The notes below the pieces were generated by a model that was not told the DNA's origin, did not search any database, and worked only from the letters and a program-made list of their open reading frames with translations. The position numbers and the translations under genes were made by a program. 60,125 nt of DNA, taken from positions 1-60,125 of the IMG/VR virus record IMGVR_UViG_3300032245_000758, one strand, 5' to 3'. How positions within the stretch are numbered: position 1 is the first letter of the stretch; every line of letters starts with the position of its first letter. Below are positions 1,095-31,518 of the stretch, piece by piece. The stretch is from a virus.

Positions 1095-1907
1095 ATGAGT
1101 GACGAAATTATAATTACACGCAATTCTGTACCAAAAGATACGCAACAAACTTCATATCCATCTGAACGAATTGACTTACCAAGTAAAGGTTATTTTTATT
1201 CAGATAGTGACCCACTAAGTTTGGGATACGTGGACATGAAAATGATGACTGCTAAAGAAGAAGACATTCTAACCAGTCAAAATTTAATTAAAAAAGGCGT
1301 TGTATTGGACAAGTTACTCGAAAGTTTGATTATCACTCCTAACGTCAATGTAGATAATCTGTTGTTATGTGATAAAAATGCTTTATTTGTTGCTGCGAGA
1401 CGATTGGCTTATGGCGACAATTATGGTCCTGTACAAATTAGATGTCAAAAGTGTTATGAAGAATCTAAACAAGTGGTTAATTTGGGAGATCTAAATGAAA
1501 AACCATACAACTTTGACAAAGTACAAAAAGGTAACAATCAATTTGAATTTCAGTTGCCATATTCCAAGAAAACCGTTGTTTTTAAACTATTGAATTCAAA
1601 AGACGAAACGGATATAGATTCTGAATTAAAAGCAACCGCAAAGTTTGTAAAATCAGGTGGTAGCACTGAAATTACTACACGATTGAAGAAAATGATAATT
1701 GCTATTGATGGTAAAACTGATAGAGCTACTATTAATAAATTTGTTGATAACGAATTGTTATCTAAAGATAGTATGGCTTTGAGAGCATACGCTCGTGAAA
1801 TAACTCCTGAATTAGATATGACTTTTAACTTTGTATGTTCAAGTTGCAGTCATGGAGAAAGGATGGATGTACCTATGACGGTACAGTTTTTTTGGCCTGA
1901 GTCTTGA
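1095..1907 (+). CDS. 26: Baseplate hub / tail assembly protein, T4 gp26-like
   Basis: The 270-residue protein matches the T4_baseplate (gp26-type) family as I know it: LPSKGYFY near residue 28, then a GYVDMKMMTAKEEDILTSQN block (44-63) and a GVVLDKLLESLI block. Two CxxC pairs (C117/C120 and C248/C251) may form a zinc site. It stands immediately before the tape measure gene, which is the position of tail assembly chaperones in long-tailed phages. Close to its stop is a run of seven T residues, followed by an ORF open in the +1 frame that has no ATG (next entry), suggesting that an extended form of about 339 residues is also made. No clear SD precedes the ATG; the leader is AT-rich. Confidence 0.75.
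   Translation: MSDEIIITRNSVPKDTQQTSYPSERIDLPSKGYFYSDSDPLSLGYVDMKMMTAKEEDILTSQNLIKKGVVLDKLLESLIITPNVNVDNLLLCDKNALFVAARRLAYGDNYGPVQIRCQKCYEESKQVVNLGDLNEKPYNFDKVQKGNNQFEFQLPYSKKTVVFKLLNSKDETDIDSELKATAKFVKSGGSTEITTRLKKMIIAIDGKTDRATINKFVDNELLSKDSMALRAYAREITPELDMTFNFVCSSCSHGERMDVPMTVQFFWPES
1887..1893 (+). promoter_or_regulatory. Candidate programmed frameshift site (T7 run) at the end of the gp26-like gene
   Basis: The zero-frame codons are TTT TTT TGG, five codons before the stop. Moving +1 (or -2) on the T run keeps Phe-tRNA pairing with UUU and enters the frame of the downstream ORF, which is open without a stop from here to 2112. The arrangement parallels the G/GT tail chaperones of lambda-like phages and the -2 shift of Mu. 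A homopolymer sequencing error would look the same. Confidence 0.5.
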
Positions 1908-2115
1908 GTATAGATTGCATCTCCACGAACAAATATTTCAGTTAAGTTACTTTTCCAACGGAGCGGTAAATGTAAATATTGCGTATAATCTACCGGTACA
2001 TTTACGTAATTTTTATTACAGTCAACTTGTTAAGTTAAAAGAACAAGAGAACAAGAGTTACGATCAAACTTCATCGAAACCACCTTCTAAGTCTAGAGTA
2101 GATAAACCATTCTAA
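1888..2115 (+). CDS. Frameshifted C-terminal extension of the gp26-like protein (GT-type chaperone tail)
   Basis: This reading frame is open from the T7 run at 1887-1893 through the gp26 stop to TAA at 2113-2115. It contains no ATG; the only isolated start is a TTG at 1915 with no ribosome binding site. The product reads as a small folded domain (HEQIFQLSYFSNG followed by YNLPVHLRNFYYSQLVKL) and then a charged, disordered end. The LPVHLRNFYY-type ending is, from memory, typical of small tail-chaperone domains that accompany tape measure proteins. Ribosomal frameshifting would fuse about 73 residues onto the first 266 of the gp26-like protein. Initiation at the TTG is the less likely alternative. 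Confidence 0.55.
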   Translation, partial: FFGLSLEYRLHLHEQIFQLSYFSNGAVNVNIAYNLPVHLRNFYYSQLVKLKEQENKSYDQTSSKPPSKSRVDKPF

Positions 2116-28002: not shown

Positions 28003-29187
28003 ATGGATGCATTACAAGAATATTTTGGAATTGAGGCTTTTGACTTTGAGACAAACAAAAAGAAATTAGTTGACAATCTCAATTTTCTGAAAGCCATGTC
28101 TGTAGAAGAACAGACTTTTTATAAGAAATGGCAAGAAGTTCAGTCGTTTAAAGGATCATCAGGTAAGTTAAATGAAGTAAAAGCCAAGATTTGGACTCCC
28201 ACTGATTTTAATGATGAACAATTGACGATTAAAGAAATAGAAAATTGTAATCCAACGTTGATTCATGTTGACTCTAAAAGAGACAATGAAGACTGGACAT
28301 TAATTCGTATTTTTGGTCACACAATGTCATTTGACCAAACGCCGGGTAGATTTTTAAAGTTTCTTGTGACGGATGGTAATAAAGATAATCCTCGTTATAT
28401 TGGTGCAATTAGTGTATCCAGTGATGTAATTGCCATTAGTGATCGTGATACGTATCTGGGTTGGACATCGGATAATAAGATTAAAGATAAGAAACTAGCT
28501 CATAGTGCTATTGGTAGTTGTATTATGAGTACTCAACCTATTGGTTATAATTTCTTGGGTGGTAAATTGGTAGCTGCTATGATTACTACTAATACTGTGC
28601 GAGAATTATGGAAAAAGTTATATAGCCAAACTCTCGTGGGTATGACAACTACAAGTTTGTATGGTAGTTATAGTATGTATAACAGTTTAAAATGGTGGCA
28701 CAAGTGTGGAAGTAGTGCTGGTAAGATTGCTATTAAACCAGATGAAGACATTTATAAAGTTTGGCATGAATGGGTAAAAGATAATTGTTCTGAAAAGTAT
28801 GATGCAGCAATGACGCAACGTGAAGGTGTATCTGGTCCTGTAACGGGAGCTAAATCACGTGTACTGAGTATGATTTTTAGTAAATGTGGTATTAAACAAA
28901 GTAACTATCAACATGGATATGAACGTGGGGTATATTATAGTTGTTTTTATGAAAATACCAAAGATTATTTACAGAATAAGATCAATGATGACAAATTGAT
29001 CATGAAAGATTTGTATAAACGTGATACTCAAGCTGTTTGTGAATGGTGGAAACCAAAAGCTATAGAACGTTACAAAAAGCTAAAGAGTGAGAATAATTTA
29101 AAGACCAATGTACACTTTTACAATAATATGATTGGAATGTCATATGAAGAAGCTAAAAGTGTGTATTTTAAAGAAGTTGGAAGATAG
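28003..29187 (+). CDS. DUF4338 / DruA-like protein
   Basis: The 394-residue protein holds, in order, FGHTMSFDQTPGRFLKFLV, RYIGAISVSSDV, a strongly conserved-looking RDTYLGWTSDNKI, FLGGKLVAAMI and VGMTTTSLYGSYSMYN, then KWWHKCGSSAGKI. From memory this matches the DUF4338 core (Y-x-G, RD-x-x-IGW, LASK, ETF-x-x-YG-x-x-Y, G-T-x-GR) found in DruA of the Druantia anti-phage system and in many phage proteins of unknown function. The C-terminal 120 residues are an added helical, basic region. It has its own promoter and near-leaderless start. Possible roles are counter-defence, superinfection exclusion or DNA modification; all are inference. Confidence 0.6.
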   Translation: MDALQEYFGIEAFDFETNKKKLVDNLNFLKAMSVEEQTFYKKWQEVQSFKGSSGKLNEVKAKIWTPTDFNDEQLTIKEIENCNPTLIHVDSKRDNEDWTLIRIFGHTMSFDQTPGRFLKFLVTDGNKDNPRYIGAISVSSDVIAISDRDTYLGWTSDNKIKDKKLAHSAIGSCIMSTQPIGYNFLGGKLVAAMITTNTVRELWKKLYSQTLVGMTTTSLYGSYSMYNSLKWWHKCGSSAGKIAIKPDEDIYKVWHEWVKDNCSEKYDAAMTQREGVSGPVTGAKSRVLSMIFSKCGIKQSNYQHGYERGVYYSCFYENTKDYLQNKINDDKLIMKDLYKRDTQAVCEWWKPKAIERYKKLKSENNLKTNVHFYNNMIGMSYEEAKSVYFKEVGR

Positions 29188-30572: not shown

Positions 30573-30597
30573 CATAATATAAAAAGTGTGGTATAAA
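30569..30597 (+). promoter_or_regulatory. Sigma70-like promoter of uvsE (leaderless)
   Basis: TTGACA, 17 nt, TATAAA. The -35 box starts at the stop codon of the fibre-like gene and the -10 box ends 6 nt before ATG 30604. This is the same spacing as at 10929 and at the minus-strand gene starting at 57386. Confidence 0.7.
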
Positions 30598-30603
30598 CAG
30601 AGA

Positions 30604-31518
30604 ATGACAAAATCTCTCTGTTGCATTTCACTCAAACTCCAAGAGCAAAAAATCCGAGCTTCAACAATGACGAAGACTCGGTTTCTTGCATTAGAACGTA
30701 AAACTGCGGAAAAAACTGTAGCGGATCGTACACTAAACAATGTATATGTGACACGTAAGACATTGGAGTACTGTGCTTTACACAAATGGAACTATCGTGT
30801 TAGTAGTGGTATGATGCCTTTGGAAACTCTTCCAGAAGCAAATCTTTCAATCGAAACTACATACAATTATTCAAAAATTAAACAAGAGTTTGATTTGTGT
30901 GCGTCTGTTATCAAGAAAAACAATATTCGATGCAGCACACATCCAGATCAATTTGTTGTGCCAGCTAGTGCAAATCAAGCAGTTGTCAAAAAATCCATCA
31001 TCGAATTGGAGGCTCATGGAAAAATGATGGATGCTATGGGTTTACCACAGACATATGAAGCTCCTATCAATATCCATATGAACTGTTATAAAGGTGATCT
31101 AAATGATATCGCATTGCGTTTTATTGATGTATATAACAGCATTTCTCCAAATGTGAGGGGTAGACTAGTACTGGAGAACGAAGATAAACCTAATAGCTGG
31201 AATGTTAAACAGTTGTATGACTTGATTTATTCTAAAACTGGTATTCCTATTACGTATGACAATCTTCATCATCGTTGTAACCCAGGCAATTTATCTGCTA
31301 AAGATGCTATGAAACTAGCTATGTCTACGTGGGGTAGTTATCGTCCTCTATTTCACTTTAGTGATAATGATCTAACAAATAAAAATCCACGAGCGCATGG
31401 AGACTATGTTCGTAGTATTCCACCCGAATATGTTGATATGGACGGCGCAGATTATGAATTTGAGTTCAAAGCTAAAGACTATGCTCTTGAACGATTTGAA
31501 AAAGAATTTAAAATTTGA
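30604..31518 (+). CDS. uvsE: UV damage endonuclease UvsE/UVDE
   Basis: The 304-residue protein is a TIM-barrel UV-damage endonuclease that nicks 5' of photoproducts. Visible metal-site motifs are NNIRCSTHPDQFVV (about 101-114), NIHMNCYKGD, a glutamate in GRLVLENEDKPNSW, TYDNLHHRCNPG and HFSDND. These match the UVDE family order, and length is normal. An upstream in-frame GTG at 30586 is inside the promoter, so ATG 30604 is chosen; it is 6 nt from the -10 box, with no SD. It complements UvsX in DNA repair, useful for a sunlight-exposed phage. Confidence 0.85.
   Translation: MTKSLCCISLKLQEQKIRASTMTKTRFLALERKTAEKTVADRTLNNVYVTRKTLEYCALHKWNYRVSSGMMPLETLPEANLSIETTYNYSKIKQEFDLCASVIKKNNIRCSTHPDQFVVPASANQAVVKKSIIELEAHGKMMDAMGLPQTYEAPINIHMNCYKGDLNDIALRFIDVYNSISPNVRGRLVLENEDKPNSWNVKQLYDLIYSKTGIPITYDNLHHRCNPGNLSAKDAMKLAMSTWGSYRPLFHFSDNDLTNKNPRAHGDYVRSIPPEYVDMDGADYEFEFKAKDYALERFEKEFKI

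Follow-up and report, generated by a model that had tools for sequence, protein, structure and literature searches.

A single gene of a T4-type phage very probably encodes both a short (TAC-N) and a long (TAC-NC) tail assembly chaperone by means of a programmed +1 ribosomal frameshift, in the manner of the lambda G/GT pair. This assessment is drawn from the sequence of the gene, from its relatives and from the wider protein family to which it belongs. In lambda, gpG and gpGT are produced by -1 frameshifting; chaperone shifts of -1, -2 or +1 are found in different tailed phages, and the G-T shift was described in a 2016 review as widely conserved except in T4 (PMC5009743).

The overlapping reading frames and their surroundings

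The window, that is the whole stretch of DNA analysed, corresponds to a complete IMG/VR record of 60,125 bases. The features relevant to the frameshift are collected in the table below. The zero-frame protein matches Pfam PF12322 (T4_baseplate) with 46.2 bits for a gathering cut-off of 24.5; the match covers residues 45-267 and reaches the last position of the profile. The same protein matches phrog_150 (baseplate hub) with an E value of 2.1e-12. The 3' end of the gene reads TTT TTT TGG CCT GAG TCT TGA, starting with a run of seven Ts (1887-1893). From 1882 onwards the +1 frame remains open, past the zero-frame stop, until it is closed by a stop at 2113-2115, with no ATG in between. A previous sequence-only reading had described the frame following the gp26-like gene as open through the stop, devoid of ATG and joined at a T7 run placed five codons ahead of that stop, and the sequence agrees on all these points. 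Among the plus-strand genes listed in the window, this stop is the only one located inside another frame that is open for at least 40 codons without ATG, and the probability of 69 open codons occurring by chance is about 4.5e-4. The gene stands directly upstream of the tape measure gene, whose product matches the 'tail tape measure protein' of Flavobacterium phage immuto (BLASTP, E 2e-15) and the protein found at the equivalent place in Mel-JY01 (E 3e-27).

Table. Features of the chaperone locus and of the adjoining gene, in window coordinates
Feature	Position	Strand	Basis
gp26-like short tail assembly chaperone (TAC-N), zero frame, 270 aa, C-terminus ...VQFFWPES	1095..1907	+	PF12322, phrog_150
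Putative slip site TTT TTT TGG	1887..1895	+	kept across 153 relative loci
Zero-frame stop TGA, five codons past the second TTT	1905..1907	+	sequence
+1-frame C-terminal extension (TAC-C, T-like), 73 aa plus TAA, three predicted helices	1894..2115	+	alignment, pN/pS, AlphaFold2
Tape measure protein gene, 808 aa	2150..4576	+	BLASTP

Several genes located elsewhere in the window were also recorded. A phage-encoded DruA-like protein (PF14236, E 3.5e-21; 28003-29187, plus strand) is related to a component of the Druantia defence system. A UV endonuclease UvdE (PF03851, E 1.8e-41; 30586-31518, plus strand) adjoins replication and ribonucleotide reductase genes. On the minus strand, a long block (33472-57386) displays glycosyltransferases of families 2 and 61 together with a MobA-like/IspD nucleotidyltransferase and a uridine-kinase-like protein; it looks like a polysaccharide island, which is unusual for a T4-type phage.

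Conservation of the layout and direction of the probable shift

Relatives were collected from IMG/VR in two scans. The first, performed with the upstream protein, retrieved 77 relatives, and the same +1-frame peptide follows the gene in all 73 whose gene end is available. The second, performed with the extension, retrieved 568 relatives; in the best 80 of these 568, the extension lies in the +1 frame in all but one. The slip site is present in 153 loci, as TTT TTT TGG (140), TTC TTT TGG (8) or TTT TTT TAC (5), and all of them have the extension in the +1 frame. These loci represent 88 distinct 160-base contexts and, since some contigs are common to both scans, about 140 distinct contigs. The +1 layout is also observed in seven named or catalogued phages: Mel-JY01, immuto, RM378, LIS04, SP-15, GXN1 and LR756508. 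The site of immuto reads TTT CTT TGG. For LR756508, GXN1, SP-15 and LIS04, the most distant of the seven, the slip codon is a different one and can be placed with less certainty. The sequence-only reading had proposed to examine the conservation of the run and of the out-of-frame ORF among relatives; the slip site and this ORF are retained across the 153 loci. That reading had also named six Ts, or relatives with one uninterrupted ORF, as observations speaking against a frameshift; both were looked for, and the damaged copy L156 is the only one in which the gene is continuous.

This copy (about 1300-2010) is the sole relative with an in-frame extension, and together with the error-prone nature of homopolymers it is what could suggest a sequencing or assembly error, the true gene being a single continuous ORF with six Ts. 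The N part of L156 nevertheless contains a second one-base frame change, so that the copy looks damaged or misassembled. The same frame relation is found in the 153 loci and in the named phages, with or without a homopolymer. As all complete relatives examined, apart from L156, have this layout, the overlap is neither due to chance nor to a homopolymer error, and the probability left to such an error is negligible. The variants TTC TTT TGG and TTT CTT TGG, which shorten the T run, argue against this explanation and equally against slippage of the RNA polymerase. In the latter case, a fraction of the transcripts would have six or eight Us, sparing the ribosome any shift, which would suit the location of the T7 run exactly at the junction. 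Seven Ts are however short for efficient transcriptional slippage, and the out-of-frame layout is kept with only four (TTCTTTTGG) or three (TTTCTTTGG) Ts, making polymerase slippage very unlikely.

The same variants bear on the direction of the ribosomal shift. A slip of two bases backwards, as known in phage Mu (PMC5009743), would give the same two products with one extra Phe, and the corresponding re-pairing is as perfect on the T7 sequence as that of a +1 slip. The -2 pairing is however mismatched for TTC TTT TGG (8 loci, L050 among them) and for TTT CTT TGG of immuto, so that Mu-type re-pairing is not possible in all members. A +1 slip is favoured over -2 because these variants break the -2 pairing and keep UUU-U or CUU-U; the -2 slip is accordingly considered improbable. 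The sequence-only reading had left the direction as +1/-2: its +1 part is favoured over its -2 part, the variants keeping the +1 pairing. A +1 P-site slip from UUU to UUU would fit the site in every close relative. Among 38 divergent representatives (mutually less than 80% alike), the second Phe codon of the site ends in T in all 38 and the first in 92%, for a value of 81% TTT among Phe codons elsewhere in the genes. The bias at the second codon is modest alone, yet it sits where the putative mechanism would need it.

Classical stimulators were searched for in the window and in the same 38 representatives. No stable downstream RNA structure was found (z +1.35 in the window, mean z -0.53 in the representatives), and neither was a nearby Shine-Dalgarno stimulator, an SD-like 4-mer being present within 20 nt in 2 of the 38. 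SD-like words occurring at -40 to -21 in 34 of the 38 were rejected as stimulators, being too distant and coinciding with conserved Glu-Arg codons.

Strong purifying selection acts on the out-of-frame part, and it does so in the +1 frame only. The pN/pS values of the extension in four groups of relatives are 0.10, 0.19, 0.31 and 0.36 in the +1 frame and range from 0.87 to 6.0 in the other two frames; the lowest +1 value, 0.095, is accompanied by ratios exceeding 1.3 for the other two frames. The alignment of the extension (26 members) displays 9 invariant columns. For structure prediction, the N part and the extension were folded separately and not as a fusion; the AlphaFold2 model of the extension has three helices (pLDDT 82.8). 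No significant match was obtained with this model using Foldseek, and sequence searches of the PDB returned chance-level matches only.

A selected peptide of this kind could also be the product of a separate small gene, translated by ribosomes that re-initiate at a start other than ATG, for example the TTG at 1915, and the database annotations indeed give small separate ORFs at this place. This TTG is not conserved however, and a survey of start codons among the relatives identified no conserved initiation site and none with a Shine-Dalgarno sequence. In many relatives, the first ATG, GTG or TTG comes no earlier than position +79, well inside the conserved domain, and the conserved FFGL motif begins upstream of any start codon. 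In addition, the T4 counterpart of the extension is part of gp51. Independent initiation is thus a highly improbable origin of the extension. The peptide had been viewed in the sequence-only reading as a folded chaperone domain, forming a GT-type tail joined to a gp26-like protein by a programmed frameshift just before the tape measure gene; this proposal is well supported by the conserved site and peptide, the purifying selection and the lack of an alternative start.

The proposed +1 frameshift can be summarized as follows. Positions 1095-2115 would constitute one gene with two products. The majority of ribosomes would read the zero frame to its stop and release the short gp26-like TAC-N. A minority would slip one base forward at UUU UUU UGG, the P-site tRNA-Phe moving from UUU 1890-1892 to UUU 1891-1893, with GGC 1894-1896 presumably decoded next. 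The shifted ribosomes would run to 2115 and produce TAC-NC (339 aa), whose C-terminal extension is predicted to be helical. On the model of lambda gpG/gpGT, the tape measure protein would be coated by both forms, and tube subunits would be recruited through the extension. We infer from comparative data that the shift takes place, and likewise how often it does so, at which precise step slipping happens and what the two forms bind. The predicted junction peptide of the window is MDVPMTVQFFGLSLEYR (2031.98 Da) for the +1 product and MDVPMTVQFFFGLSLEYR (2179.05 Da) for the -2 product; the peptide predicted for the product without shift is MDVPMTVQFFWPES (1712.76 Da).

Probable frameshift direction across the gp26/gp51 family

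The 3' end of the gene was read in annotated phages from across PF12322. An extension in the -1 frame is present in the cyanophages S-RIM8, P-SSM2, S-SRM01 and Syn19, in Methylophilales phage Melnitz-1, PhiW-14, a KVP40-like phage, ZPAH1, PA5oct, PBECO4, Phosso, Atu_ph07, CM1 and XacN1, and in two Ackermannviridae. The site in these members is mostly TTTTTTC; an extension in the -1 frame after TTTTTTC is not what the lineage of the window displays. T4, for its part, has 26 and 51 as two separate genes. The complete genomes of Mel-JY01 and immuto each contain the gene at one place only (tblastn) and, as judged from these two genomes, the lineage does not use the two-gene solution of T4.

Profile comparisons relate the three arrangements. 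The N parts of the +1 and -1 groups match each other with a probability of 98.0 (E 2.5e-13), the +1 extension matches the -1 extension of cyanophages and KVP40 with 84.4 (E 7e-6), and the -1 extension matches the C-terminus of gp51 with 96.8 (E 2.8e-10). The +1 extension alone gives no significant match to gp51 in such comparisons; the full +1 fusion gives a weak but collinear one (53.8, E 1.3e-4). The +1 extension would thus be linked to gp51 through the -1 group. The model of the N part (pLDDT 84.7) matches predicted T4-type hub proteins in BFVD, including the hub subunit of SP-15 (E 2.9e-19); its Foldseek match to the HK97 chaperone 2OB9 is insignificant (E 4.6, TM (target) 0.48).

Annotations of the -1 members deserve a comment. 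The small -1 piece is named 'gp51' or 'hub assembly catalyst' in the records of P-SSM2 and S-RIM8. In three Kyanoviridae loci (L089, L090 and L091, about 1900-2080), ORFs labeled 'gp51', 'baseplate hub assembly catalyst' or hypothetical correspond to the -1-frame extension and not to a full gp51. In the jumbo phages XacN1 (L084) and CM1 (L100), the zero-frame protein continues for at least 10 codons beyond the slip site, so that the two-frame overlap is longer than elsewhere.

In a tree of 45 proteins, the +1 and -1 labels are strongly clustered and the starred branches force at least two changes of direction. The +1 phages of Firmicutes are placed apart from the main +1 clade. Monophyly of the +1 phages is not rejected (p-AU 0.284), and the deep branching order is unsure because of long branches. 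If one base were lost in the interval from the T run to the extension, a -1 layout would become a +1 layout; one further one-base change would yield a continuous gene. Since single-base changes suffice, a change of direction needs little. By a slight preference, the history retained here is that a whole lineage of T4-type phages makes its long chaperone by shifting +1 at a bare UUU UUU UGG without a classical stimulator, that +1 and -1 were switched at the Phe-Phe point within one homologous gene family, and that T4 lost the shift in favor of two genes. Vladimirov et al. reportedly concluded that frameshifting is kept by several T4-like groups, whereas the T4 group relies on its genes 26 and 51.

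The T4-like chaperone genes were identified by Vladimirov, Gautam and Davidson (Virology 2022), according to the papers citing them (PMC10885494, PMC12846349), and some T4-like phages contain a short gene and a longer fusion gene (PMC10885494). A frameshift of T4-type gp26 had been regarded as undescribed in the sequence-only reading; this does not stand, as poly-T frameshift signals in T4-like TAC-N genes are credited to Vladimirov et al. in a citing paper (PMC12846349). In the literature consulted, where that work is represented by its citing papers, neither a lineage-wide +1 version nor a change of direction at one homologous site was found; these two aspects may be new.

Comparison with known systems

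One gene family would display three decoding strategies (-1 shift, +1 shift and two genes) at one homologous point and is a clean case for the study of how frameshift direction evolves. The analysis lends support to the idea that the short and long tape-measure chaperones of T4 are gp26 and gp51, two proteins that had long been listed as hub chaperones with an unclear function (PMC3004832). Annotations call for correction as well: in many cyanophages and their relatives, the small 'gp51' or hypothetical ORFs behind gp26 are extensions and not genes.

The window has in common with the gp26/gp51 family an N part ending in Phe-Phe, a short and a long form, and a homologous C-terminal extension. 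T4 differs in that its two forms originate from the separate genes 26 and 51, and the cyanophage, KVP40-like, Ackermannviridae and jumbo-phage members differ by their -1 frame, whereas the window has its extension in the +1 frame at TTTTTTTGG. The likeness to lambda gpG/gpGT lies in an out-of-frame overlapping extension directly before the tape measure gene and in a slippery site close to the end of the first ORF; lambda shifts by -1, and the resemblance observed is one of layout. Access to the +1 frame of a tail chaperone gene is likewise gained in the archaeal virus HSTV-2 and in phage Mu, by +1 or -2 shifts (PMC5009743), with different protein families and sites. Finally, the bacterial prfB (RF2) site CUU UGA resembles the present one by a forward P-site slip onto UUU, proposed for the latter, immuto having CTT TGG; unlike prfB, the window has neither an in-frame A-site stop nor a Shine-Dalgarno sequence just upstream.
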